Assembly (NCBI GenBank): GCA_005881575.1
Contig: VBCA01000008.1
Span: forward strand, 1 to 64,000
Reading direction: 5' to 3'
Length of the DNA: 64,000 nucleotides
Origin: Betaproteobacteria bacterium
GTDB lineage: Bacteria > Pseudomonadota > Gammaproteobacteria > Burkholderiales > SG8-39
Positions 15,444 to 29,509 of this stretch are shown here, piece after piece. Both the position numbers and the translations under genes were made by a program. Under the pieces are notes generated by a model. It was not told the origin of the DNA. It ran no database searches and saw nothing but the letters and a program-made list of their open reading frames with translations. How positions within the stretch are numbered: the first letter of the stretch is position 1; each line of letters begins with the position of its first letter.

Positions 15444-16991
15444 TCACGGGGTGACCAGCTTCTTCCTCTTCCCCGTCGATCGCCAGGCCTGAGTGTTGCG
15501 GAACTCCCGATTGCCGATCCTGAGCAAGGCGGTGATCGGCCCGAGGACAGGAGGGCTCAGCTCCCTTTCGTTGGCCTTCATGCTCATGTCAAACCGCCGG
15601 GTCTTGGCGTTGAACGTGATGCCGAGCTTCGCGTAGATGATCGGGTCCCCTTGGGTGCCGTCCTTCTTGCGCTTGAAGAGCCACTCCCGCCCCGGGCGCG
15701 TCGTCGTCCACCCGTCTCCCGCCGGGACTTTGATCTCCACGATGCGCCTATCCGCGTTGGTGAGGCTGAGGGTCACCCCGTCGCGGGGAGGGTTCATGCT
15801 ATACGGCGGAGCGACGAAGCTCCCGCGGAGGGCGACCCAGTCCTGATGCGAATGCCGGTCGCGATGGAGCTTGGCTTGGCTGAGCAGGAGGGCAGCAGAC
15901 GGACGGCGCGCAGCCGTCAGACTCGAGAACGCGTCGGACCTGATCACAAATGTGTCGATGATTTCCCCGTTGATATTCTTGAAGTAGCCCTGCGCCTTGC
16001 GTGGGTCGCCGTCGATGTTGAAGGTGATAAAGAGAGCGCCGAATGTCGCCCCCTGATCGCTGGTGTAGATCTTGGCCCATTCACCGTTGCACCCATACGG
16101 AAAGGTTGTAGGAAGGCAACGCTGCTGGCTCCTGATGCTCTCTCCGCCCAGGCCCGAGACGAAGACAAAGGATCTCCCCGGACTTCCGCTGCCGACACAG
16201 AGATTGTCAGGGCTGGAACATGAAGCATCGACGATTTGATTTTGGATGCTTGTCAGCGTCTTGGTCCGGTGATAGCTGTGCTCATGGGCAGTGGCGATGA
16301 TCGCGCCAAGGTCCTTGCAGGTTTCGTAGACCCTCCACCCCATTGCGTCGTCCTTGTCACCGACCTGCATGGCGTTCTGGTTCTTATGCCAACTGCAGAT
16401 TCTCCAGATGTGATCATCGGTCGCCAACTGGTCCTGAAGGTACGGGGCGTAGATGCCGTCGCCGTAGCTGGTCCCCTCCTGGCCGACGAAGACCATCTTC
16501 AACCCTCTGTAGGTCACGGCGTACATTTCATCGTTGAGGTTGGGGTCGTCCGGTACTGCTCCAATACGGGCCATGCGGTTCTTCAAGAACGCGGTATAGC
16601 ATCCATTGAGATTCGAGCAGCCTTCGTTCCAGCGGTCGTTGTCATGATTGCCGACTGATGCGAAGTACGGAAAATCGGGCCCCAGAATGCTGTCGATCGT
16701 CGCAAAGAACCCATTCGGGTCCTGCACATAGTCAAAGTCGCCCTGGTGCATGACCATTACGGCGCCTTCCGACTTGATGAGGCCGAGGATCCGTCTGAAA
16801 TCCTCGCCGTTCCCGCTATCGCCGATGAAGGCGACTTTCAGGTTAGGGGCCGTGGGGATCGAGCCCGACGCGCCCTGTGCATGCCCGCGTGCGGGCCCCA
16901 AGGCGGTTGCGAGGAGGGCCGTCAGGATTCCTCCGGCAATGAGGCGCGGGACCCGGTGGATGTACCGCAAGTCGCCATGAATGCTGATCAT
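15444..16991 (-). CDS. Secreted purple-acid-phosphatase-like metallophosphoesterase
   Basis: The 515-residue protein has a signal peptide ending near GHAQG. It carries the five metal-binding blocks of purple acid phosphatase-like enzymes in order: GDSG (57-60), GDFDY (84-88), GNHD (114-117), CSWHK, and AHEHSYHRT. Such enzymes release phosphate from organic phosphates at a dinuclear metal site. About 170 C-terminal residues after the catalytic domain look like a beta-sandwich of unknown role. Its ATG overlaps the phytase stop by four bases, so both are translated from one message. It probably removes phosphate from partly dephosphorylated inositol phosphates. Confidence 0.88.
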   Translation of the reverse strand: MISIHGDLRYIHRVPRLIAGGILTALLATALGPARGHAQGASGSIPTAPNLKVAFIGDSGNGEDFRRILGLIKSEGAVMVMHQGDFDYVQDPNGFFATIDSILGPDFPYFASVGNHDNDRWNEGCSNLNGCYTAFLKNRMARIGAVPDDPNLNDEMYAVTYRGLKMVFVGQEGTSYGDGIYAPYLQDQLATDDHIWRICSWHKNQNAMQVGDKDDAMGWRVYETCKDLGAIIATAHEHSYHRTKTLTSIQNQIVDASCSSPDNLCVGSGSPGRSFVFVSGLGGESIRSQQRCLPTTFPYGCNGEWAKIYTSDQGATFGALFITFNIDGDPRKAQGYFKNINGEIIDTFVIRSDAFSSLTAARRPSAALLLSQAKLHRDRHSHQDWVALRGSFVAPPYSMNPPRDGVTLSLTNADRRIVEIKVPAGDGWTTTRPGREWLFKRKKDGTQGDPIIYAKLGITFNAKTRRFDMSMKANERELSPPVLGPITALLRIGNREFRNTQAWRSTGKRKKLVTP

Positions 16992-18361
16992 CTTGGGCTT
17001 TCCCTTTCCGCATGGAAGCGTTCATCCAGTGTCGAGGATATGTTGACGAACACCGGGCAATGAGCTTTGAGCTTTTGCAATTTATCGGCCTTCTTCTTGA
17101 CTTTCGTCTTGTCATCCAGCTCCAACTTGACCACTTGCCCGTTCGCCACTGGGATGCCGTTGAGCTCCGCACGGCTCGTAACACCTGCATTGACGGTACC
17201 GCTGCAAGTTGGCGGCGAAGCGTTGCTCGCGCGGGCGACGACCCGTAGCCCCTTGCCCGGCTTCAGTCTCCGAGGATCCCGGTAGCGCGTATCGACGCGC
17301 AGATTGAGACTCCTGGCGATTTCGTCCCACTTCGTGACTTGAACCGGGTACGGCTCCCTGCGACCGTTGTGGCTAGCGAAGATTCCTGCAGGGAAGCGCG
17401 CATTAAAGGATAGATTGATGACGTCTATGCCGTCGGTCTGCGTCACGCCGTCAAGCTTAAAGACCCCGAGGAATCGATGCGGGGATTGACGCTCGTAGAC
17501 GGTAAACGTGCTGTTACCTTGGCTGGAGGCGATGAGGTAGCCTCCTCCATCGGGCAAGTAGTACATCGCCAACCCTTCTACGTCTGCCGCCAAGCCGTTT
17601 TCGCCCACGGCGGCAATTTTCGTCCCCTCAGTACGATCCTGCGGCTCGGCATCGAAGTTCCAGATGCCGACCGACTCTTCGGCTACGTAGAGCTTGCCGT
17701 GCTCATCGTCAGCGACCATGCCCTCGACGGTACTACCCAGGCGCATCTCGCGCACCGGCTTCTTGGCCGATATCCGGCCGCGACCGTTGTCGATGAGCTC
17801 AAATTGCTTGATTTGTGCCTTCGACCAAAGCGTCGACTCGGTGCTGGTAAACGCGTAAAACCTGCCTGTCTTCGGGCTCCTGTAAAGCGTGATGCCATAG
17901 CTCGGACCGGAGTCGATCCTGCCATCGTCGATCTGTTCCAGATGGCGGCTCACCACATTTACTTTGTAGACGCGGATCTTGTTCGTGCCGCGTTCGTTGA
18001 AGGCGACGATATCGACCGTCTCTTTGGCCAGCGTGAAGCGATAGCGCGTGTCGATGTTGCCGGGCTTCTGAGCAGAGACGACCTGCAGCGTCTTGCCGGC
18101 CAGATCGTAGACAAAGATTTTGTCCGCCTTCTTGTCCGACGTAATGATCGTGCTTTGCGAAAGGTCGCTCGGGTGAAGCCAGAACGTGAGGTCGTCCTGG
18201 TCTCTAGCCTCCGCGGCTTGCAGCGTCAAGCTCGGACTAATGGCCGGTTGCGTAGCGGCGAAGCCGGCGTCAAGCGCCAGCAGCAAAAAGAATACGGTGA
18301 AGCAGAACGCGGTTGTCCTGCTCGGCATCGCCCTGCCAGGTTCTCTAGCGCTACTTGTCAT
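16988..18361 (-). CDS. Beta-propeller phytase
   Basis: The 457-residue protein has a signal peptide (FCFTVFFLLLALDAGFA). The blades of the calcium-dependent beta-propeller phytase family follow: DQDDLTFWLHP, PSYGITLYRSPKTG, EGMVADDEHGKLYVAEESVG, DVEGLAMYYLPDGGGYLIASSQGN, and TDGIDVINLSF. These enzymes hydrolyse phytate outside the cell. About 90 residues after the propeller form an extra C-terminal domain with lysine-rich sequence. The ATG at 18361 was chosen because gagga lies nine bases upstream; an upstream reading to 18409 is possible. It heads a two-gene operon with the phosphatase. Confidence 0.9.
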   Translation of the reverse strand: MTSSAREPGRAMPSRTTAFCFTVFFLLLALDAGFAATQPAISPSLTLQAAEARDQDDLTFWLHPSDLSQSTIITSDKKADKIFVYDLAGKTLQVVSAQKPGNIDTRYRFTLAKETVDIVAFNERGTNKIRVYKVNVVSRHLEQIDDGRIDSGPSYGITLYRSPKTGRFYAFTSTESTLWSKAQIKQFELIDNGRGRISAKKPVREMRLGSTVEGMVADDEHGKLYVAEESVGIWNFDAEPQDRTEGTKIAAVGENGLAADVEGLAMYYLPDGGGYLIASSQGNSTFTVYERQSPHRFLGVFKLDGVTQTDGIDVINLSFNARFPAGIFASHNGRREPYPVQVTKWDEIARSLNLRVDTRYRDPRRLKPGKGLRVVARASNASPPTCSGTVNAGVTSRAELNGIPVANGQVVKLELDDKTKVKKKADKLQKLKAHCPVFVNISSTLDERFHAERESPR

Positions 18362-18543
18362 ACGGTCCATTCCTCTGTCGCAATCTAAGCCGTGGCCAAG
18401 ATCGATCATGGCAGCCGCTCACCGACCCGAAACAGCCGCAACCGTGCGCATTTCGCGGCACGGACGCGAAGGGATTTCCTATCCTTCGCCGCCGGGTATA
18501 CTTACGAAAGTCCTGTGTATCCGTGCATCGGAAGAGGAAGCAC

Positions 18544-20046
18544 ATGAACGCGATCCATACCCTGGGCTGGGCCCTCGTGCACTCGTTGTGGCAGGACGCG
18601 CTTGCCGCGGCGGGCCTGGCCTCCCTCCTCGCGCTCGTCCCTGCGCGGGCGGCTCGCGTGCGCTACGCACTCGCGGCGCTGACGCTGGCGATCATGCTGG
18701 CGCTTCCCCTGGCGACCGCACTGCGCCTCGACGCCGCGTCCGATGCTGCGATGCCGGCGCTCGCCGCTCCCGCGCTGACGTCGCTCGTCGACCGGATCCG
18801 CGCGGGGCTCGAGCCCACGCTGCCGTGGATCGTCGCCCTGTGGCTCGGCGGCGTGCTGGTGATGTCGGCGCGGCTGGCGTCGGGGTGGGCAACGACACGG
18901 CGGCTGGCGACCGCGGGAACGCGGCCGGTCTCCGACGCCTGGCGGCAGGCGCTCGCCCGTCTCGCGAGGCGGCTCCGCGTCAGCCGGCCCGTGCGGCTGC
19001 TCGCGTCGGCGTTGATAGAGGTGCCCGCAGTGATCGGCTGGTGGCGGCCGGTGATTCTCATCCCGGTGAGCGTGCTGGCGGGGGGCGGTCTCACGCCGCT
19101 GCAGCTCGACGCGCTGCTGGCCCACGAGCTGGCCCACGTGCGGCGGCACGACTACCTCGTCAACCTGCTGCAAACGGCGGTCGAGACGCTGCTCTTCTAC
19201 CATCCCGCGGTGTGGTGGGTCTCGACGCGGGTGCGCGAGGAGCGCGAGCACTGCTGCGACGACCTGGCGGTCGCCGCCTGTGGCGACGCGCGTGTCTACG
19301 CGACGGCCCTGCTCAGGACGGAGCAACTGCGCGCCGCACCGGCGCTCGCGCTCGGGGCGGGCGGCGGCTCGCTGCTCGGTCGCGTCCGCCGCCTCCTGGC
19401 ACCGGCGACGCCCGACGCCTTCCCGCGCTGGCTCGCCGGCGTCTTCGGCGGGGCGCTCGCGCTGGCGGTGGCGATCGGGAGTGGTTGGGGCCTGCATCGC
19501 TCCTTGCCGGCCTCCGCGGATTCGCTGATCGCACTCGCGACCGGGTCCCGTGATCCGGAGGTGCGCCACGATGCTGTGAAGGAGCTGGGCCAAACGAAGG
19601 ATCCGCGGGCCCGAATGACCCTCATCGCCCTCGCCCAGACTGATCCCGACGACGACGTGCGGGACGAAGCCGTCGAGAGCCTCGGCGCGGCGTTCCCCGA
19701 TGCCGAGACCGTGCGCGTGCTCGCCGCGATCGCGCGGCGCGATCCAAATGAGCACGTGATGCGCGAAGCGCTCGAGACGCTCGGCAGGATGAAGAACGGC
19801 GCCGGTCTGCCGGTGGTCATCGACATCGCCCGCACGCATCCGAACCCCGACGTGCGGCGCGAGGCGGTTGAGAGCATCCGCGACGAAGCGCCGCGGGCGA
19901 TCTCCGTACCGATCCTGCGCGAGATCGCGCGCCGGGACCGAGACCCCGACGTGCACCGCAAGGCGGCGCACGCGCTGGCGAAGTTGGACGACTCTAGGCG
20001 TCATGAAGCTCGGTCGTCGGTTGCATCGAGCAGCTTGCGGATTTGA
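18544..20046 (+). CDS. M56 (BlaR1/MecR1-like) membrane peptidase with HEAT repeats
   Basis: The 500-residue protein begins with transmembrane segments. The M56 zinc-peptidase motif HELAH (194-198) sits within LLAHELAHVRRHDYLVN, followed by EREHCCDDLAV, which supplies the third metal ligand. After another transmembrane helix, residues from about 330 to the end form roughly five HEAT-type repeats (DPEVRHDAVKELG, DPDDDVRDEAVESLG, NPDVRREAVESI). BlaR1 relatives sense a signal and cleave a BlaI-type repressor, but no BlaI gene is nearby and a HEAT tail replaces the penicillin-sensor domain. The last residues overlap the 3' end of the opposite kinase gene. Confidence 0.85.
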   Translation: MNAIHTLGWALVHSLWQDALAAAGLASLLALVPARAARVRYALAALTLAIMLALPLATALRLDAASDAAMPALAAPALTSLVDRIRAGLEPTLPWIVALWLGGVLVMSARLASGWATTRRLATAGTRPVSDAWRQALARLARRLRVSRPVRLLASALIEVPAVIGWWRPVILIPVSVLAGGGLTPLQLDALLAHELAHVRRHDYLVNLLQTAVETLLFYHPAVWWVSTRVREEREHCCDDLAVAACGDARVYATALLRTEQLRAAPALALGAGGGSLLGRVRRLLAPATPDAFPRWLAGVFGGALALAVAIGSGWGLHRSLPASADSLIALATGSRDPEVRHDAVKELGQTKDPRARMTLIALAQTDPDDDVRDEAVESLGAAFPDAETVRVLAAIARRDPNEHVMREALETLGRMKNGAGLPVVIDIARTHPNPDVRREAVESIRDEAPRAISVPILREIARRDRDPDVHRKAAHALAKLDDSRRHEARSSVASSSLRI

Positions 20047-21125
20047 TCCAGCTCCTCCGGCGTGGCCGGCCGTGTGGACAGGGCCTGCAACACGAGCTCG
20101 AGCGCCGCGCCCCTGGGCTTGAAGGCCGGCGGCTTGGCGGGCACGACCGCCTCGGACGCCAACGCGTCCTCGACCAGCCGCGCCGCTTCGGCCAGTTGGG
20201 CGTGTGCCCGCGCCAGCCAGTCGGGCTTCCGCCGCTTCACGGCGTGGACTTTGCTGGCGAGACGCAGCAGCGCCGCTGCCCGGTGCCAAGCGAGCGCGCG
20301 CTCGTCCAGGACATCGCGCGTCCCCTCGACCAGCGCAGTCAGCGCCCGCGTTGCCTCGCCGGCCAGCGCCTCATGGTCCAGGCCGAGGCGCCAGACGGTC
20401 GCCAGAAACATTCCGGCATCGAGCTCCAGTGGCCCCTGCCCGAAGCGCTCCCAATCGATGAGGCCCGCGCCGTCCCCGAGGTCGAGCACGTGGCGGGCGT
20501 AGAACGTGCCGTGGACGAGCTGTGACCTGTCTTCCCGCGGCTGCGCCTGTGCCAGCGTCGCGGCGAGCCGCGTGGCCGCGTCTCCGAGCGTCGGGTCGGC
20601 CTCACGTAGCCACGCGACCCATTCACGCGCGCGGCTCAGCATGCGAGCCGCGCCGAGCGGCAGTCCGAGCCGCACTGGGAGGGACGCGGCACATCGCAGC
20701 CATTGCGCGGCCAGCTCGCCGGCGCGCTGACCCCGTCCCTGTTTGACCAGCTCGTGCGCCGTCGGCCCCTCCAGCCAGCCGATCACGATGACCCGCAGGT
20801 CTCGGTCCCAGGCAAGCAGCGGCGGCACACGGACTCCGGAGTCGCCCGAGAGGCCGGCGGCCGCGAGGGCCCGGTACAGGACTACTTCCGGCGTCGGGTC
20901 TGCGGCGTACGCCTTCACCGCGAGGCGACGCTGCCCCACGCGAACCTCGAGTGTGGCGCGTTCGCCCGGCGAGTAGCCGACGAGATGCATGGCGACGGGA
21001 GCGTCCTCCAGCCCCAAGGCCAGGAGCGCGCGTGCAAGGCCCAGCGCGCGGGTCACGCCGAGCGCGCGCATCGCCACGATCCCGGGCAGCGCCGCGTCGT
21101 CGGGCAGATCAGTGGTGGGGTTCAT
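20001..21125 (-). CDS. APH-fold kinase with altered catalytic loop and C-terminal motif (kinD)
   Basis: The 374-residue protein has the aminoglycoside phosphotransferase/choline kinase fold: RLAVKAY with a candidate ATP-binding Lys71, VIGWLEGPT, and the metal-binding GLIDWE around residue 224. The catalytic loop reads VHGTFYARH, so the Asp expected after HG is Thr207. It may be inactive or use another base. The last 34 residues, after a Pro-rich linker, carry a motif shared with the first protein of the operon. The ATG overlaps the upstream stop by one base (TGATG). Antibiotic resistance should not be assumed from the fold. Confidence 0.8.
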   Translation of the reverse strand: MNPTTDLPDDAALPGIVAMRALGVTRALGLARALLALGLEDAPVAMHLVGYSPGERATLEVRVGQRRLAVKAYAADPTPEVVLYRALAAAGLSGDSGVRVPPLLAWDRDLRVIVIGWLEGPTAHELVKQGRGQRAGELAAQWLRCAASLPVRLGLPLGAARMLSRAREWVAWLREADPTLGDAATRLAATLAQAQPREDRSQLVHGTFYARHVLDLGDGAGLIDWERFGQGPLELDAGMFLATVWRLGLDHEALAGEATRALTALVEGTRDVLDERALAWHRAAALLRLASKVHAVKRRKPDWLARAHAQLAEAARLVEDALASEAVVPAKPPAFKPRGAALELVLQALSTRPATPEELDQIRKLLDATDDRAS

Positions 21126-22528
21126 CAGAGTGTCCCGGACGCCGTGCGGTGCGCCTCGGCGACGGCCGCTGCGACCTTTTCGGGCCAGCGCGGCTCCTGG
21201 CGCTTGAAGATGCCGCCCGCAACCTCGATCAGTGCGCCGGCGCAATGCAGGGCAAATTGGTGGCGCCATCCCGCTGGGACGTGGGCGAAGTATTCGTCAG
21301 CGAATAAATCCGCAGCACGCCGCGCCTCATCCGCCGGCAGCGCGTCGAGACCGACCCGGGCCGTGATGTGCGCGACCAGGTGGGCGGGGTCCCGCACGGG
21401 ATCGCCTAGGACGACAGAGTCGAGATCGATGAAGCACACCCGGTCGTCCGAAACGAATATGTGGTCGGTCTTCAAGTCCCGATGGATGGGGGCTGGCGGC
21501 GCCTCCGTAAGACCGTCCCCGACCGCCGCCGAGAGCGCCACGACCTGCGCTCGCAGCTCCGGACAGGCCCACTGCACGAGACTTGCCGCGCGGTTCACGT
21601 CAACGAGCTGGTCGGCTAGAGAATGGCGCTCGGTCAGCGGCAGGTCCGCTTGATTGAAGGCGGCCACGGCTCGAGCCACCGCGCGCAGGGCCGCGGACCA
21701 GTCGTCCCCGCGCAGCAGGATCTGCTGCAGCGCCGTGCCTCGAGCCTCCTCTAATGCCAGGGTGCGCAGCTCGGGCACGTAGGCGATGGGCCGCACCACG
21801 TCGTACGGCGCGCGGCCTGCCCGTGCGTTGTCGGCCAGCGCCTGCAACAGTCGGAGGGTCTGCGCCCCACGCTCGTTGCGATAGACCTTCAGGTAGCAGC
21901 GGCGGATCTCGCCCTTCCCCGTCAGCCGGTCGCGCGCCTGTAGCGTGTACCGGAGCGCGGCGCCGAGCTCCGTGCGGTAGCGCATCGGCTCGATCGTCCG
22001 TTCCTCGGCACGCCAGCGGCCGGGTTCCGGACCGGCGAGCAGCAGTGGCTCGAGCTGGTGCACGGCGCCGTCCAGCACGAGGCGCAGATTCGGGAGCTTG
22101 CGGTCGAAGGGAAAGACTTGCACCAGCATCTGCAGCTCGGGGATGAAGTCCATCGGTTCGAACACGAGCCACTGCTCCGGAATCTGCGGGCGCGGATCCG
22201 CGGCGCGCAGCTCTCGCCACAGCCGCTCGGCCTCGCCGGGCGCGGCGTACACCAGGCCGGTCACCCACTGGTCCCAGCTGCGACCGCTGCTCGGATCGAC
22301 GACGCGGAGCGTATATTGCAAGACGCAGCGCGACGTGGACTGGCGGCACCGAAATCGGAAGGGGACACACTCCTCGATGCGGTAGGCCTTCCCCGAGACC
22401 GCCTTGAGACGCTGGCGGAACACTTGGAGCATGAGCCGCGCATCGCTGGCGGTCTCGAGCTGCGGGAAATCCGGGTCCGCCGGGAACCCGTCCACGGAAA
22501 CCGCCGCCGGGAGCGCCTGTTTTCGCAC
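21125..22528 (-). CDS. APH-fold kinase with duplicated N-lobe (kinC)
   Basis: The 467-residue protein ends in a complete kinase domain: CYLKVY with the likely ATP-binding Lys214, IHRDLKTDHI as the catalytic loop, and CFIDLDSV as the metal-binding segment. Residues 69-150 look like a second, degenerate copy of the N-lobe. QYTLRVVDPSSG aligns with RYTLQARDRLTG at 193, and FIPEL with VPEL, at the same spacing; the first copy lacks the Lys. The substrate is unknown. It lies 17 bases after the ABC exporter gene. Confidence 0.78.
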   Translation of the reverse strand: MRKQALPAAVSVDGFPADPDFPQLETASDARLMLQVFRQRLKAVSGKAYRIEECVPFRFRCRQSTSRCVLQYTLRVVDPSSGRSWDQWVTGLVYAAPGEAERLWRELRAADPRPQIPEQWLVFEPMDFIPELQMLVQVFPFDRKLPNLRLVLDGAVHQLEPLLLAGPEPGRWRAEERTIEPMRYRTELGAALRYTLQARDRLTGKGEIRRCYLKVYRNERGAQTLRLLQALADNARAGRAPYDVVRPIAYVPELRTLALEEARGTALQQILLRGDDWSAALRAVARAVAAFNQADLPLTERHSLADQLVDVNRAASLVQWACPELRAQVVALSAAVGDGLTEAPPAPIHRDLKTDHIFVSDDRVCFIDLDSVVLGDPVRDPAHLVAHITARVGLDALPADEARRAADLFADEYFAHVPAGWRHQFALHCAGALIEVAGGIFKRQEPRWPEKVAAAVAEAHRTASGTL

Positions 22529-22545: not shown

Positions 22546-24354
22546 TCAGGGCGCGAGGGTCGCGGCGGGCTGCTGCAGATCGAGCGTGTACAGCTGCCGG
22601 TACCGCGCGTTCCCGGCCAGCAGCTCAGCATGCGTGCCGCGGCCGATGACCCGGCCTTCCTCAAGCACGAGGACGACATCGGCGTCCGTAATCGACTGCA
22701 GGTCGTGGGTGATCATGAGGCAGGTTTTGCCGGCCATGAGCCGATCGAGTGCCTCGCGCACGTTCGCTTCGCTCTCGGCGTCGAGGCCCGTCATCGGCTC
22801 GTCCAGAATGAGGATCGGGGCGTTGCGAATGAGCGCGCGCGCAATCGCGATCCGCTGGCGCTGGCCGCCCGAGAGGGTAGCGCCCCGCTCGCCGATGACG
22901 GAGTCATATCCGTCCTCCAGCTCCCGGATGAACTCGTCGGCGTTTGCCGCCTTGGCCGCCGCGATGATCTCCTCCAAGTCCGCGTCGGGTCGGCCATAGG
23001 CGATGTTCTCGCGAATCGTGGCTCCGAACAGAATCGATTGCTGGAGCACGAGCCCGATCTGGCGGCGCAGGGACTCCCGCCGATAGTGCTGGATGTCGAC
23101 CCCGTCGACGAGAATGACCCCCTCGTGCGCTTCGTAGAGACGCAGGATCAGGCTGACGATGGTGGACTTCCCCGCCCCCGACGCACCCACCAGGGCCAGC
23201 CGCTGCCCCGGCGACACGGCAAACGAAACGTGCCGCAGCACGTCCCGGCCGTCGCCGTAATCGAAGGACACGTCCCGGAACACGATCTCTCCGCGGAACG
23301 GGGCCGCCTCAATGGCATCGGGGCGATCCTGGATCTCGGGCGCGATGTCCAGGACTTCGGACAGCCGGTCCGCGCTGGCCATGGCCTTGGAGAAGTCGGT
23401 TGAGAGCTTGGCCAGACTCTTGAGCGGCTTGTACATGTTGGTGAGGTACGCGACGACGAGCACGAGCTCGCCGGGCAGCATCCTGCCGTTCACGACCTCC
23501 AGCGCTCCGAACAGCACTGCCGCCGCAGTCCCCAGCGCGGTGATGATCTCCGATGACCGTGTTGCCGCGGCCTCCAAGCGGGCAATGCGAATGCTTTCCC
23601 GCAGCGTCTCGCCCGTTACCGCGTCGAACCGCTCTTCCTCGTGTTTCTCTCGGGCGAAGGCCTGCACCAGCGGTATCGCCGAGAGCACCTCGCTCATGCG
23701 CGACGCCACTTGACCCTCTTGCCGTTTTTGCTTCTTGGCGGAGGCCTTCGTCTTGCGATAGAGATGCAGCAGGCTGTAACCCAGGAACGGCAGGGTCGCC
23801 AAGGCGATCAAGCCGATCCTCCAATTCATGGCGAACATGATCGCGAACATCCCGATGACCGTCAGCAGCTGTGCGGAAAACTTGAGGATCGACTCCGCGA
23901 ACACGTCCTTGAGCGTGTTCGTGTCCGCGCCGATCCTGGTCAGCAGGTCCCCCGTGCGCGCCTGGTTATGGAACGAGAGCGACAATCGCTGCAAATGCGC
24001 GAACAGCTCCCGGCGCAGCGCGTAGACCGTGGTGTAGCCGATGGAGGAGGTGATGAAGATCTGGGCATACGAGAAGAGCCCGCCACACACCGCGATCAGC
24101 ACGATCGCGCAGGACGCTGCCAGGAGGAGGGGAACCTGGCCGCTCGGGAGGAGATCCCGGACAAATGGCAAGAGATGCGGCATTGGCTTCAGCAGGATGC
24201 CGTGATCGATGATGATCTTGAGGGGCCACGGCTTCAGCAGCTCCGTGGCCGCAACGCCCACGGTACACACAGCGGCCAAGAGTAAACGCCCTTTGACCTG
24301 GCGTAGGTGAGCCAAGAAGATCTGGCGAAACCGCGTGCGTTTCCCTGGTCGCAT
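22546..24354 (-). CDS. ABC exporter, fused membrane and ATPase domains
   Basis: The 602-residue half-transporter has an N-terminal six-helix membrane domain (LLLAAVCTVGVAATELLKPWPLKI, then VLIAVCGGLFSYAQIF) and a C-terminal ATPase with Walker A GASGAGKST, signature LSGGQRQRIAIARAL, and Walker B ILILDEPMTG. It is the type IV exporter class of MsbA and lipid or drug exporters and should work as a dimer in the inner membrane. It is the only transporter in a seven-gene operon of glycosyltransferases and kinases, so it probably exports their product or a lipid-linked intermediate. Confidence 0.93.
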   Translation of the reverse strand: MRPGKRTRFRQIFLAHLRQVKGRLLLAAVCTVGVAATELLKPWPLKIIIDHGILLKPMPHLLPFVRDLLPSGQVPLLLAASCAIVLIAVCGGLFSYAQIFITSSIGYTTVYALRRELFAHLQRLSLSFHNQARTGDLLTRIGADTNTLKDVFAESILKFSAQLLTVIGMFAIMFAMNWRIGLIALATLPFLGYSLLHLYRKTKASAKKQKRQEGQVASRMSEVLSAIPLVQAFAREKHEEERFDAVTGETLRESIRIARLEAAATRSSEIITALGTAAAVLFGALEVVNGRMLPGELVLVVAYLTNMYKPLKSLAKLSTDFSKAMASADRLSEVLDIAPEIQDRPDAIEAAPFRGEIVFRDVSFDYGDGRDVLRHVSFAVSPGQRLALVGASGAGKSTIVSLILRLYEAHEGVILVDGVDIQHYRRESLRRQIGLVLQQSILFGATIRENIAYGRPDADLEEIIAAAKAANADEFIRELEDGYDSVIGERGATLSGGQRQRIAIARALIRNAPILILDEPMTGLDAESEANVREALDRLMAGKTCLMITHDLQSITDADVVLVLEEGRVIGRGTHAELLAGNARYRQLYTLDLQQPAATLAP

Positions 24355-24356
24355 GA

Positions 24357-25340
24357 TTAGCGCGCGCTCGCCAGCAGGTCGATCGCCTCGGCCTGCCGCC
24401 GCTGGATCGCCTCGGCCTCCGGATGGCGAGTCCGGTCAAACGTGAGTGAGTGGATCTTCCGCGCGAGAGCGATCTGCTCGTACCAGGCGACCCGCTGCGC
24501 TAAGCCCGGAGCGTCGGGGGAGGAGCGCCGGTAGGCATCGAGGATCGTGGCCCGCGCCGCGGCGAAGTCCGGCAGCTTCTCCGGCTTGCGCAGGGTGAGC
24601 CGGCGCAGCTGGGTCAGCAGATTGCCGAGGTCCAGCGCCGGATCACCGCGCGTGCAATCGTCGAAGTCGAGGAAGACGATCGTGCCGGCTTGCCACCGGA
24701 GCTGCACCAGCCCCAGGTCGCCGTGCAGAAACGACGGAGCGGCCGGCGGCGGCGCGGCCTCACGCTGCAGCCGGTCGCGCCAGCGCTGCAACGACGCGGC
24801 CTCCGCGGGAAACCGGCTGCACAGCTCCACAATCCTTCCTTGCAGGTCGGCGAGCACGGCGGCAGGACCCGTCACCGACGCCAGCGTAACGGGCGCGGCA
24901 TGCAGGGCGGCCAGCGCGCGTCCCATCGCGGCCAGCACGTGGGCACCGTCTGCGGCGATCGCCTTGACGACTGACTCGCCCGGCTCGTAACTCAGAAGGA
25001 GCAGGCGACGCGGGGCGTGGTAGGCGAGCACCCTCGGAACCACGAAGCCGCCACGGGCGCCACACCGGGAGGCGGTCAGCTCTCGCAGCGTCGTCGCAAC
25101 GCCGCAGGCATCCCCGTCGCGCTCGTAGAATTTGCCCACCCACTGGTGGTGTTGTACCTCAGCGCCACCGGGCATGCGGGCCTGGACGTCGTACCGCACC
25201 ACGCGGTGTTTCCCGCGCTTGGAGAGGGGATGCTCGCTCCAGGTGTCGACCACCCCGTCGGCACCGTGAACCGCGCGAAGCGCCGCAGCGAGGGCGACGC
25301 CGAGGTCCGCACCACTCAGTGTGGTGGGCGGCGCGTTCAT
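24357..25340 (-). CDS. APH-fold kinase (kinB)
   Basis: The 327-residue protein has the phosphotransferase fold. WVGKFYERDG carries the likely ATP-binding Lys, FLHGDLGLVQL is the catalytic loop, and VFLDFDDCTRGDPALDLGNL is the metal-binding segment. The Asn usual after the catalytic Asp is Gln here, as in several APH relatives. The gene overlaps the kinA stop by four bases (ATGA) and ends two bases before the ABC exporter gene. The acceptor is unknown; a sugar, lipid or nucleoside produced by the adjacent glycosyltransferases is possible. Confidence 0.8.
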   Translation of the reverse strand: MNAPPTTLSGADLGVALAAALRAVHGADGVVDTWSEHPLSKRGKHRVVRYDVQARMPGGAEVQHHQWVGKFYERDGDACGVATTLRELTASRCGARGGFVVPRVLAYHAPRRLLLLSYEPGESVVKAIAADGAHVLAAMGRALAALHAAPVTLASVTGPAAVLADLQGRIVELCSRFPAEAASLQRWRDRLQREAAPPPAAPSFLHGDLGLVQLRWQAGTIVFLDFDDCTRGDPALDLGNLLTQLRRLTLRKPEKLPDFAAARATILDAYRRSSPDAPGLAQRVAWYEQIALARKIHSLTFDRTRHPEAEAIQRRQAEAIDLLASAR

Positions 25341-26341
25341 CGCGGTTGCCCCGAGGGCACCACGTCCTCAAGTGCCGCCCGCGCCCGCGCGGCGAGCTGA
25401 GGCGCGAGCCGCGCGCGGTCGGCCGTCTGCTTGCGATAGATCGTGTAGATCTTGCGCACGAGCGTGAGGCCCTGGTAAAACGACACGTTGCGTGGGGATA
25501 CCTGGGGCATCGCGCTCAGGTAGGCGTCGCGGAAGCAGGCGAGCCAGTGGTCCGCATGCGCCGAGAGTGTGCGATCCCACAAGCACCGTCGCTCGAGCTG
25601 CGCCAGAAAATGGCCGGCGTCGTACGCCGGGTCGGCGTACCCGAACATGTCTAGGTCGAGCAGGACGAGGCGATCGCCCGTCCAGAGGAACTGCCCCGCT
25701 GCCAGGTCGCCGTGCACCGGCGCGGGCTCGGACGGATCGAGCAGGGGCGCGGCGTGCTGGATCGCCACCAGGAGCGGCTCGATGACCGCGGTCGTCTCGG
25801 GCCAGCGGTGCCGCAGACGGTCGCACCGCCCCCGCGTCTCGGCGACGAACATCTGAGGCGTCGTTGGCGGCTCCGGAACGACGGGCAGGCGGTGCAGGGT
25901 CGCGGCCAAGCGGGCCGCGCGGCGCAGCAACTCCGGTTTTCGGTCGTCGACGATCTCGGACAGAAACGACCCGTCCACCCATGGGAACACCAGCGCGCGC
26001 TCTCTCGACACGTACCGCAACGGCAGGCTAGGTCCGTCGTGGTTAGGCTGCAGCCCGCCCGCCAGGGCCTGCGAATGCGCCCACACCTGCTCTCCGAAAT
26101 CATCCGCGTACACTTTCACGGCGTAGGCCCGTTCCTGCCCGGTGGGTGAGCGCACCAGGACGCGAAGCACGAAGCGGTCGGAATGCGCGCTTTGCAGGGC
26201 GCTGGCCGTGTCGGCCGCATGGAAGTCCGCCGGCAACGCGGGGCCAAGTATCTCGAGCGCCGGGCCCGGTTGCTCGAGACGGGCCAACTGGGCGCGCACC
26301 GCGGCGCGTTGCGCCGGCGTGGGCTTGAACCGGATGCGCAT
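25337..26341 (-). CDS. APH-fold kinase (kinA)
   Basis: The 334-residue protein has the phosphotransferase fold. YAVKVYADDFGEQ holds the likely ATP-binding Lys, PVHGDLAAGQFLW is the catalytic loop, and VLLDLDMFGYADPAYDAGHFL is the metal-binding segment. These residues appear intact, so catalysis is expected. An ATG at 26341 overlaps the upstream glycosyltransferase stop by one base (TGATG). The conserved K-x-Y N-lobe motif is also present in kinB, kinC and kinD, consistent with duplication within the operon. Confidence 0.82.
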   Translation of the reverse strand: MRIRFKPTPAQRAAVRAQLARLEQPGPALEILGPALPADFHAADTASALQSAHSDRFVLRVLVRSPTGQERAYAVKVYADDFGEQVWAHSQALAGGLQPNHDGPSLPLRYVSRERALVFPWVDGSFLSEIVDDRKPELLRRAARLAATLHRLPVVPEPPTTPQMFVAETRGRCDRLRHRWPETTAVIEPLLVAIQHAAPLLDPSEPAPVHGDLAAGQFLWTGDRLVLLDLDMFGYADPAYDAGHFLAQLERRCLWDRTLSAHADHWLACFRDAYLSAMPQVSPRNVSFYQGLTLVRKIYTIYRKQTADRARLAPQLAARARAALEDVVPSGQPR

Positions 26342-27552
26342 CAGTCCCCACCGAGCCAGCGCGAGAGGTACGCGGTGAGCCGGGTGGCCCCGTCGAACGA
26401 CGGAATGATCTGGTCTACGAGTCGCGCGTGCGCTTGCCGATCGCACCGCAGCGCCCACTCTACGGCCTCGGCGAGACCCGGGCCCGTCAAGTCCTTGGGG
26501 TGAATGCACCGGGCCAGCCCACGCGCGGCCAGCGTTTCGGCGCGGATCTGCTGCTCGACCTTATGCGTGGCTCGGGGCACGATCACGAGCGGTCGCGCCA
26601 CCGCCAGGGCTTCGCACACGCTGTTGTAGCCTCCCATACTGACGACGGCGTCCGCCGCAGCCATCAGCTCGAACGTATCGGCGCTGGGTACCACGCGACA
26701 TGCGTCCGTGGCCCGTGCCTGTAGCATCGCCTGCTGATCGGCAGGCATGAACGGCCCCGTCACCAGGATCGCGCGCAGATCGGCAACCTTCGCCTGCAAC
26801 CTTTGGACGGCAGCCCGCGCGGCGTCCAGCACCGGATACCCGTCGCTGCCGCTCCCCACCGTCGCGAGAACGAACGGCGTGTTCTCGGCCAGCCCCAGGC
26901 GCCGACGCACCATGCCAGGATCAACCGCGGGCCGAGCGCGCACGACGTACCCGCAGTAATGGAGCTTGGGCTGGACCGATGCGGGGATGGCATAGGCCTG
27001 CGCGACATCATAGAGGTCAGGGGAGCCGTACACCGCGATCCCGTCGTACAGGTTCTCGAGCGCGTCGTACGCGCCAAGCTCTTCCCATGCGGCACGAATG
27101 CGCGCGGCGTCGTCCATGATGTCGCGCAGACCGAAGACGAACCTGGTCTCGGGATGCTGCGCCTTAAGGGCCCACAGACCCTCGCGAAACTCACCCTTGG
27201 AGCCCAAGGGCTCGTGATCCACCAAGACGAGGTCGGGCGCGAGTCCGAGCGCGGCGTCCCGCAGGATCTCACCGCGCACTCTCCGGAAGTGTTGTTTCGC
27301 CGCCTCTTCTTCCGCCGCGGTCGGCCGGGCGGTGCCGGCGGTGAGGAGGGTGGGCAGCTTGATGTAGTCGCACCGCTCGGGAAGCGTGAACCCGGCGAGA
27401 GGAGATTTGGTCGCGATGTAGGCGATGCAGTCCGGATGGCGCGCCAGGACGTGGCGGGCGAGTGTCAGAGTCCGGGTGACGTGCCCCAGCCCTTGGTTGT
27501 CCTGCGCGTACAGCAACAGTGTACGCGTCTGGGCCGACGCGGATGGCTTCAT
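26341..27552 (-). CDS. GT28/MurG-like glycosyltransferase (gtB)
   Basis: The 403-residue protein has a two-domain GT-B layout. AQDNQGLGHVTRT is a glycine-rich N-terminal loop like that of MurG, DLVLVDHEPLGSKGEF lies in the first domain, and ADAVVSMGGYNSVCEAL and RPLVIVPRATHKVEQQ form the nucleotide-sugar end. It should transfer a sugar from a nucleotide donor; donor and acceptor are unknown. It overlaps gtA by four bases (ATGA). It shares the same ordered blocks with gtA, so the two are paralogues from a tandem duplication. Confidence 0.82.
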   Translation of the reverse strand: MKPSASAQTRTLLLYAQDNQGLGHVTRTLTLARHVLARHPDCIAYIATKSPLAGFTLPERCDYIKLPTLLTAGTARPTAAEEEAAKQHFRRVRGEILRDAALGLAPDLVLVDHEPLGSKGEFREGLWALKAQHPETRFVFGLRDIMDDAARIRAAWEELGAYDALENLYDGIAVYGSPDLYDVAQAYAIPASVQPKLHYCGYVVRARPAVDPGMVRRRLGLAENTPFVLATVGSGSDGYPVLDAARAAVQRLQAKVADLRAILVTGPFMPADQQAMLQARATDACRVVPSADTFELMAAADAVVSMGGYNSVCEALAVARPLVIVPRATHKVEQQIRAETLAARGLARCIHPKDLTGPGLAEAVEWALRCDRQAHARLVDQIIPSFDGATRLTAYLSRWLGGD

Positions 27553-29009
27553 ACCGTCGGTGTGCCGGTGACGGCGCCGTTCAGCAGATCGGCTAGCAAG
27601 GTCGGTATGCGGGTGAGGCCACCCACATCGACGCGGCTGCGGTGAGTCGGCAGGGGACCCAGATCGCGCGCCAGCCACTCACTCAGCGCGCGCGGGCTCA
27701 AGTCGTCGGGATGCAGCACGTCGATCAGCCCAAGATCCCGCAGGCGTTGTGCGCGAATCCATTGCTCGGGCTCGGGGTGCACGCGCGGCACGATGAGGGC
27801 GTGCTTCTCGAACGAGAGCACTTCGCAGATAGTGTTGTAGCCGCCCATCGCGATGATGCGGTCGGCCCGGTTGATGAGGGGCACCGGGTCGGGGACGAAT
27901 TCGAGCACCTCGCAGCGCGGGTTACGCTGCGCACTCTCGAGCAGGCGATGCCGAGACTCTGGGGGCATGTATGGACCGGTCACGATCATGCCGGTGGTGT
28001 CGGATCCGAGGTCGGCGGCGACGAACGCCTCGGCTAGGGCATACCCGTCCACGCCACCACCCACCACGCACAACGCAAGTTTGGCCGGCGGTGGAGGTAG
28101 GTTCGTCACGAGCTGCGTGGCCTGAGCCCCGGCGAGCTCGAGCCGTTGACGCTGATCCAGATACCCCGTATAGCGCACCTTGCTCGCGACGCCATCGAAG
28201 ACCCCATACTCGCGAACGGGATCGAACACGGCAGGATCACCGTAGATCCAGATGGCGTCGTAGTAGTCCCGCATCGCGTCCAGCCAACCGTCGGTGCTCC
28301 ACGTGCGGCGCACCGTCTCCGGATCCTGCAGCACCTCGCGCAACCCTAGCACACAGCGCGTGCGCCCGTGTTTACGGACGCGTTCGAGCGTGCGGACGAG
28401 CTCCCCTCCGGCGCCGAGCGGCAGGTAGTCGACGAGCAGCACGTCCGGTTGGAACGTCTTGATCGCTTTGCGAATCACTTTGCTGCGCAGCGTGATCAGC
28501 TCCTGGTCGGAGACGTCCAGGAAACGGGCGTTCAAGCCGCCATTGGCCTCTTTGCGCAGCCCCGGAAGGGTCACGCAGTCCACGCCTTCGGGCATCGGGA
28601 TGGCGCCAGCTTGCCACGCTTCGGCAATCATGAGGATCACCGCTTGCGTGCCCGCGTCGCGCAGCGCGTGCGCGATCGTGGCGTTGCGGCGAATGTGTCC
28701 AAACCCATGCATCCCCTGGGAATACGTGGCGATCCGAGGGAGAGGGGGCTCACGAGCGGAGAGCGGCGGCAGGTGTGATCGCGGCGGCGTGACGGGCTCG
28801 ACCGCCCGCAGCGCGGGCGACGTCCGCATCCCGTCGAGCAGCCTCCGGATCTCGGCCAGCTCTTCTGGCGTGGCCGACGACGCGGAGAGGGCGCGCAACG
28901 CGAACTCGAGCGTTTCCACGATTTTCGGCACGTCGCCATCGCCCGAAGACGTCGCTGGCGGCGCCATCGCCACGATGGCCGCTTCGGCTCTAAAGTCGAG
29001 CTTCTTCAC
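27549..29009 (-). CDS. GT28/MurG-like glycosyltransferase with N-terminal extension (gtA)
   Basis: The 486-residue protein heads the operon. The catalytic part starts near residue 90 (YSQGMHGFGHIRRN) and contains DVLLVDYLPLGAGGEL, CVLGLREVLQDPETVRRTW, and ADRIIAMGGYNTICEVL, matching gtB block by block. Residues 1-90 are extra. Within them, residues 32-60 match the C-terminal tail of the last kinase (ATPEELxxIRxLLD core). The start is GTG at 29009 behind gggaggaggg, a strong ribosome-binding site. It should be a cytoplasmic or membrane-associated transferase; the product is unknown. Confidence 0.82.
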   Translation of the reverse strand: MKKLDFRAEAAIVAMAPPATSSGDGDVPKIVETLEFALRALSASSATPEELAEIRRLLDGMRTSPALRAVEPVTPPRSHLPPLSAREPPLPRIATYSQGMHGFGHIRRNATIAHALRDAGTQAVILMIAEAWQAGAIPMPEGVDCVTLPGLRKEANGGLNARFLDVSDQELITLRSKVIRKAIKTFQPDVLLVDYLPLGAGGELVRTLERVRKHGRTRCVLGLREVLQDPETVRRTWSTDGWLDAMRDYYDAIWIYGDPAVFDPVREYGVFDGVASKVRYTGYLDQRQRLELAGAQATQLVTNLPPPPAKLALCVVGGGVDGYALAEAFVAADLGSDTTGMIVTGPYMPPESRHRLLESAQRNPRCEVLEFVPDPVPLINRADRIIAMGGYNTICEVLSFEKHALIVPRVHPEPEQWIRAQRLRDLGLIDVLHPDDLSPRALSEWLARDLGPLPTHRSRVDVGGLTRIPTLLADLLNGAVTGTPTV

Positions 29010-29266: not shown

Positions 29267-29509
29267 CTACTCCGGTGGTGAGTCATCGATGCCTGCAGGC
29301 GGACAGTAGCGCTTCAGCGTATTCGGCGTCCTGTGCCCGGTCATGCTCGCGACCTCGACCGCGGACGGCCCTTCTCGAAGAAGTTTGGACGTCGCCTCGT
29401 GACGCAGGTCACGGAGACGCACGTTCTTGATGCCGGGCTTATCGCACGCCCGCAGCACTGCTTTGTGGACTGTCTTTTCGTCGCGGTAGCGCCCAAGCGC
29501 TTCGCGCAA
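29267..29509 (-). pseudogene. Tyrosine recombinase (integrase) remnant, C-terminal part only
   Basis: Eighty codons remain of a phage-type integrase: the C-terminal catalytic piece RLRDLRHEATSKLLREG and MTGHRTPNTLKRYCP with the nucleophile Tyr. A full enzyme is 300-400 residues; the core-binding domain and the first catalytic Arg block are absent. The first His of the HxxR box appears to be Arg. The fragment begins at a TTG with no convincing ribosome-binding site. It marks a former integrative element beside the tRNA-end sequence and the glycosyltransferase-kinase operon. Confidence 0.75.

Follow-up and report, generated by a model that had tools for sequence, protein, structure and literature searches.

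BlaI-type tails on two proteins of a predicted envelope-glycan operon beside a BlaR1-type M56 peptidase with HEAT repeats

In the window (the whole stretch of 64,000 nucleotides that was analysed), a BlaR1-type M56 peptidase with HEAT repeats, M56-HEAT, lies beside an operon in which two proteins, K1 and GT2, carry a short segment that is, with near certainty, homologous to the tail of BlaI repressors. Our preferred reading, to which we give a probability of roughly 0.57, is that the peptidase has been re-aimed from BlaI to the proteins of the adjacent operon by way of this transplanted segment; cleavage of the K1 and GT2 tails by M56-HEAT is put at about the same level. Evenly balanced, in our judgement, is the wider proposition that the cleavable BlaI segment acts as a portable tag, on an APH-type pseudokinase and in the linker of a GT fusion, through which a BlaR1-type sensor would control an envelope-glycan pathway by proteolysis, the repressor having been lost in the window lineage so that no transcription factor would take part.

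The peptidase gene encodes 500 residues, which matched the Pfam profiles Peptidase_M56 (E = 1.3e-29) and HEAT_2 (E = 3.6e-33), both above cut-off. An AlphaFold2 model (mean pLDDT 90) was calculated from a 45-row alignment that comprised the window protein, L005 and 43 of the 75 proteins with coordinates. It has three N-terminal helices, the protease, a further helix and then ten helices that make up five HEAT repeats (Table 1). No penicillin-binding domain was matched by Pfam in this protein, in agreement with the earlier note, which had described the sensor as replaced by about five HEAT repeats. The zinc site that the note gave as an intact HELAHxxxxD reads HELAHVRRHD, unbroken, and H194, E195, H198, E235 and D239 did not vary among the 45 rows. 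In a profile alignment these residues fell on H201, E202, H205, E242 and D246 of S. aureus BlaR1, whose roles are those given in section 7 of PMC9834060. In a Foldseek search of the PDB, structures of S. aureus BlaR1 took the first three places (E 1.4e-4 to 3.5e-4; TM-scores of 0.30–0.35 over the whole chain), and the remaining good matches were artificial HEAT-like (alphaRep) proteins that fitted the HEAT tail.

The profile score, the HExxH...E zinc site and the membrane scaffold place the protein in peptidase family M56. It falls outside the BlaR1/MecR1 class of beta-lactam sensors, scoring 71 bits against a cut-off of 400 for the NCBIfam model blaR1_generic. The consensus of the M56 subfamily also has small residues in the loop opposite the BlaR1 autocleavage loop in the alignment, the aligned structure itself being an F284A mutant. 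The topology of BlaR1 is N-out/C-out according to PMC9834060, and on homology the HEAT part of M56-HEAT should likewise lie outside the cytoplasm.

Table 1. Features of the peptidase gene and the adjacent operon in the window.
Feature	Coordinates	Strand	Remarks
M56-HEAT peptidase	18544..20046	+	Helices 1-3 at residues 2-123, M56 about 126-262, helix 4 295-314, five HEAT repeats 325-499
K1, APH-type, probable pseudokinase; disordered linker and C-terminal BlaI-type tail	20001..21125	-	Likely start ATG 21125; ORF to 21269
K1 BlaI-type tail, ALELVLQALSTRPATPEELDQIRKLLD	20025..20105	-	Residues 341-367 of 374; E 1.9e-13
K2, APH-type	21125..22528	-	Catalytic Asp kept (HRD)
ABC exporter	22546..24354	-	Nearest NCBIfam model MsbA, below its cut-off
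K3, APH-type	24357..25340	-	HGD kept
K4, APH-type	25337..26509	-	HGD kept
GT1, glycosyltransferase	26341..27678	-	GT28 C-terminal domain, no tail
GT2, glycosyltransferase	27549..29009	-	GT28 C-terminal domain, N-terminal BlaI-type tail
GT2 BlaI-type tail, LEFALRALSASSATPEELAEIRRLLD	28833..28910	-	Residues 34-59; E 2e-8

M56-HEAT converges on K1 and overlaps it by 46 bases, as the earlier note had it. The two genes do not overlap in L005, and the overlap was set aside as a functional feature; only 22 bases of the K1 tail (20025–20046) fall within it. K1 matches the APH fold family but reads HGT for HGD in all 11 rows of its alignment, and K2–K4 keep the aspartate. HGD is the APH kinase motif with the catalytic aspartate, and with this substitution K1 is probably a pseudokinase. 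Together, an MsbA-like exporter, two glycosyltransferases and three apparently active APH-type kinases suggest that the pathway makes a phosphorylated glycolipid or envelope glycan. Scanned against PADLOC-DB, the eight operon proteins gave matches only on the ABC exporter, via its ATPase part or below E 1e-3; an anti-phage defence system was set aside.

A PF03965 search of the window's genome (G000) found no BlaI, as the earlier note had stated for the DNA at hand, although seven of 14 control genomes were positive in the same search. With an assembly completeness of 96.6%, the absence is likely rather than certain. The search was also empty in G009, a genome of another genus, and 18 of the 20 genomes in that search have a BlaI above cut-off; the repressor of a BlaR1–BlaI system, linked or not, was thus found in neither G000 nor G009. 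One M56 protein of G000 passed the family cut-off and one more match was sub-threshold (E = 6.4e-4), and on these genome-wide profile searches the possibilities of another M56 and of an unlinked BlaI were set aside. The M56-HEAT gene occurred in only two of 61 genomes searched, its own included (G000 and G009). Its closest full-length relatives elsewhere, at about 50% identity, are in soil Gemmatimonadetes MAGs (L006–L011) and have BlaI directly upstream. BlaI is normally linked: it lay directly upstream of M56 in 76 of the 77 relative loci with upstream DNA (of 80 loci), the exception being L031.

The BlaIs adjoining this M56 subfamily share a conserved C-terminal segment with the consensus FxGSAxxLVMQALxxxxASxxELAEIRxLLDxxExG, derived from 41 of 44 extracted tails (L055, wrongly extracted, L078 and L060 were dropped). 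An HMM of whole BlaI, built from 80 seeds that included no K1, matched the last 34–39 residues of K1 from the window, L005, L008, L010 and L011 (E 2e-8 to 2e-7). With an HMM of the BlaI tail, which at this stage still included the L055 row, a search of 11,652 ORFs returned K1 of the window at 1.9e-13 and GT2 at 4e-8 (window) and 1.8e-7 (G009); the best match beyond these was a BlaI of another type, at 4e-3. The tail profile was also run genome-wide on ten genomes (G000, G009 and G061–G068; E ≤ 0.1). It gave exactly two matches in G000, the C-terminus of K1 and the N-terminus of GT2 (E-values in Table 1), K1 and GT2 only in G009, K1 only in G061 and the BlaI only in G068. Thus, of the two things that the earlier note proposed to look for in the genome, a matching BlaI was not found and candidates for another M56 substrate were.

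In G062–G067 there were 17 tail matches at E ≤ 1e-5: six to the cognate BlaI, three to K1, two to a further K1-like protein located at a contig end, and six to frames of 762–1230 residues that have the segment between an ATP-grasp-like domain and the GT2 domain. (The ATP-grasp-like domain of the Gemmatimonad fusion is a weak match, with a Pfam E of 0.0038, below cut-off.) Five more matches (1e-3 to 0.03) all fell in frames of 109–146 residues. In soil Gemmatimonadetes that share this M56-HEAT, BlaI is retained next to it, and the segment occurs on K1, inside the ATP-grasp-like/GT2 fusion, or both. The Gemmatimonad GT2 tail (L139) is nearest the BlaIs of the M56-HEAT clade, agreeing at 17–18 of 27 positions with L008–L011 and at 14–15 with L006–L007 (median 11). 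The window tails are not specially close to that clade: the K1 tail agrees at 15–18 of 27 (median over all BlaIs 15) and the GT2 tail at 12–15 (median 13; best 17, with L034 and L016).

The K1 tail is the best-preserved part of its protein. Among seven tailed K1 proteins, mean amino acid identity was 91% in the tail, 66% in the core and 36% in the linker, with third codon positions agreeing at 67%, 56% and 62%, respectively. Between G000 and L005, where the M56 gene does not overlap, the last 37 codons of K1 differ by six synonymous and no nonsynonymous changes. In a model of K1 (11 rows; mean pLDDT 68, linker below 50), the tail forms two helices, residues 339–351 and 356–373, at low confidence (about 50–60). 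The corresponding region of S. aureus BlaI (1sd4) aligned with the tails without gaps, and the BlaR1 cut mapped in that protein is N101–F102, according to PMC9834060 and PMC3305447. This bond aligns with His-Ala in L015 and with Gln-Ala in most tails. The Ala-Leu pair that is invariant in the 41 tails would be P1'–P2' and is kept in both window tails, the aligned site being LVLQ-ALS in K1 and FALR-ALS in GT2. A segment like that around the BlaI cut site is thus present on K1 and GT2 in place of a repressor. P1' Phe is almost invariant in BlaI where cleavage has been mapped (PMC9834060); with Ala here, the pocket or the bond must differ, which leaves the exact bond uncertain.

In 50 further M56 genomes, all 76 tail matches at E ≤ 1e-6 were in BlaI-sized frames of 129–267 residues. 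(These genomes represent 50 of 72 loci, the others being L014, L032, L033, L038, L039, L040, L044, L045, L047, L048, L053, L054, L057, L058, L059, L064, L068, L069, L071, L072, L073 and L075.) Orthologues of GT2 (58–100% identical to that of the window) carry the tail in all eight M56-HEAT genomes in which GT2 was seen (G000, G009 and G062–G067, with only the first part of GT2 in G066 and with G061 outside the GT2 search) and have a plain linker in both genomes without M56-HEAT. The latter two, G255 and G291, hold the closest untailed orthologues (70–72%), with the same fusion, the same operon order and a plain linker at the position of the tail, and no match to M56-HEAT was found in either. 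None of 22 more distant GT relatives (32–39%) from other genomes of the family and order has a tail, and M56-HEAT was absent from all 16 of their genomes searched (the search covered 17 of the 24 genomes with GT matches, not G000, G090, G093, G101, G103, G104 or G110). The fusion was matched in 15 of 200 genomes of the Gemmatimonad phylum, with at most five candidates scored per genome, and farther GTs (41–55%) without a tail were seen in G192, G214 (two), G304, G312, G325 and G333. In G371 there are two tailed copies of GT2 and one untailed, together with a fragment of M56-HEAT on the edge of a contig; the K1 beside the untailed GT2 gave a match only to about residue 144.

Ten genomes gave a substantial M56-HEAT match, and in nine of them (G000, G009 and G061–G067) one or more of the operon proteins are tailed, which supports a tie of the peptidase to the operon, for whose co-occurrence the earlier note suggested looking. 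The tenth, G315, has M56-HEAT and BlaI but no GT2, K1 or tailed enzyme. The note also named a pattern that would speak against it, a gene spread widely without the operon and always with an unlinked BlaI; with BlaI linked as described and these nine genomes, the outcome was a different one. Conversely, among the 11 genomes with tailed proteins, G291 lacks M56-HEAT and G371 has only a piece. The genomes with M56-HEAT or tails are few and related, and no probability is attached to the association. Several observations count against a re-aimed protease, among them the Ala at P1' and the window tails that are not specially close to the BlaIs of the M56-HEAT clade. The K1 of G291, at a contig end, is tailed (E = 3.4e-10), yet neither M56-HEAT nor a cognate BlaI was found in that genome, whose completeness is unstated; the single M56 and the single further tail match (9e-4) of G291 are both on contig C42. 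G062 and G063 each have two K1-like proteins that stop short of the linker and are untailed, despite the presence of M56-HEAT and a tailed GT2.

That two operon proteins are tailed and that the GT2 tail tracks M56-HEAT makes a substrate other than BlaI plausible. The earlier note had suggested cleavage of a different regulator: the tie to the operon and the idea of a non-BlaI substrate survive, but the proteins that carry the tail, a predicted glycosyltransferase and a probable pseudokinase of APH type, are not transcription factors. On the preferred reading, the HEAT domain, at the position of the extracellular sensor of BlaR1, would sense an extracytoplasmic cue, possibly the exported product, its topology being taken from homology. 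The cytoplasmic M56 domain would recognise the BlaI-type helix hairpin at the C-terminus of K1 and the N-terminus of GT2, or, in Gemmatimonadetes, the GT2 hairpin between the ATP-grasp-like and GT domains. A cut at or near (Q/H/R)-Ala-Leu, the site aligned with BlaI N101–F102, would change the activity, assembly or stability of the pathway and so turn it on or off without transcription. Gemmatimonadetes would then have two outputs, BlaI derepression and the tailed proteins, and the window lineage, with no detectable BlaI, would have the latter.

The main rival to proteolysis gives the tail an assembly role: the BlaI α5–α6 hairpin would join K1 and GT2 (and BlaI where present) in a complex or let them report to BlaI, and M56-HEAT would cut none of them or BlaI only. 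BlaI dimerises through this tail region, which would allow the tail a contact function, and the occurrence of the same hairpin on two proteins of one operon fits such a role, as does the tailed K1 retained in G291. However, GT2 is untailed in G291, leaving K1 partnerless there, and binding to BlaI cannot explain the tails kept in G000 and G009. The helix before the tail segment takes part in the BlaI dimer and is missing from the tails. The GT2 tail, moreover, tracks M56-HEAT. We consider an assembly role unlikely, although it is the alternative that fares best.

Less likely again is that M56-HEAT is an orphan left after the loss of BlaI and has moved with the operon in transfers, and that the tails are remnants of BlaI gene fusions with no present link to the peptidase. 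The empty BlaI searches of G000 and G009 agree with this, and so does the evidence for transfer. G009 has the identical gene order phosphatase, phytase, M56-HEAT, K1, K2, ABC, K3, K4, GT1, GT2, and window positions 16169–19991 match its contig C57 (L088) at 98.7% over 3.8 kb in blastn, across two genera. When G000 was compared with G009, no amino acid changes (dS < 0.01) were found in the phytase and the available part of the phosphatase, and dS is 0.014 for the M56 part (residues 1–322), 0.13 for the HEAT part and 0.17–0.32 for K2, K4 and ABC. The near-identical start and the diverged HEAT part and operon point to a recent exchange of the phosphatase–phytase–M56 block between the genera, with its edge inside the M56 gene. 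The dN/dS of M56-HEAT (0.43 to L005; 0.66 to G009 over the whole gene) is also above that of the operon genes (0.16–0.31). It is nevertheless below 1, the zinc site and reading frame are intact, and the tail is the part of K1 that is conserved best. M56-HEAT is, furthermore, kept beside a tailed K1 in G000, G009 and L005, the last a 3.1-kb contig of a Chloroflexi MAG (CF_170) with M56-HEAT, K1 and K2 ordered as in the window.

Chance or convergence of short amphipathic helices, which might be entertained for a helical segment of just 26–27 residues and in view of a marginal match (E = 1.1e-3) to a protein of G013 that looks by eye like a coiled-coil porin, is strongly disfavoured by E-values several orders from the next matches in each genome, by the restriction to BlaI-sized frames in the 50 control genomes, by tails that recur independently at the corresponding place in relatives and by the Gemmatimonad GT2 tails, which match the FxGS start of the BlaI segment as well.

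The system resembles BlaR1–BlaI and MecR1–MecI of S. aureus and B. licheniformis in its M56 gluzincin, four-helix membrane scaffold, zinc residues and domain after the last helix, and in a substrate segment that aligns with the part of S. aureus BlaI holding the cut bond. It differs in having HEAT repeats for the penicillin sensor, no BlaI found, the segment on pathway proteins and Ala at the aligned P1'. The M56–BlaI pairs of Acidobacteria, Planctomycetes, Myxococcota and Gemmatimonadetes (80 loci) belong to the same M56 subfamily (33–56% identity; 43 aligned besides L005) and have the same tail sequence on BlaI and, in some (L006, L010, L011), HEAT repeats too; unlike the window, they have BlaI almost always directly upstream, and the 50 genomes tested gave no enzyme-sized tailed frame. 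Degron tags such as ssrA are recognised by bacterial proteases. If our reading of a re-aimed protease is right, the BlaI segment would likewise be a short portable piece that makes unrelated proteins substrates of one protease, but one derived from a repressor and read by a BlaR1-type membrane sensor. To our knowledge, M56 sensors act by cutting a BlaI-type repressor, and a search of titles and abstract openings in the open literature with narrow terms found neither M56-HEAT fusions nor BlaI tails on enzymes. The arrangement would then be a one-step envelope-sensing switch, with a naturally occurring protease tag that can be transplanted, and M56 substrates could be sought by scanning genomes for BlaI tails on non-BlaI proteins. 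The tails turn an orphan peptidase gene into a testable claim.

Several observations were made on the island itself. The L005 proteins are 81–92% identical to those of the window, and the contig is either misbinned or the result of a recent transfer. Operon copies 85–95% identical to the window's were seen in G371, of the Gemmatimonad phylum (L222 and L223, on contigs C383 and C189), and reflect either mixed binning or a recent transfer. G009 has a second, paralogous operon without a tail (L147; G009:C139:12000-31000), with ABC at 62%, GT2 at 47% and K2 at 46% identity. The N-terminal, ATP-grasp-like part of the Gemmatimonad fusion found no match in the window when used as a query; in G009, a separate ATP-grasp-like gene, 47% identical to it, lies on the operon contig (L087, positions 5105–5914 on C57). 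The phytase (16988–18409, minus strand; Pfam E = 1.6e-75) had as best NCBIfam model the ‘myxosortase-dependent phytase-like phosphatase’, at 178.9 bits against a cut-off of 440. Just upstream of the operon, a short frame on the minus strand (29267–29509) resembles, by eye, the end of a tyrosine recombinase.
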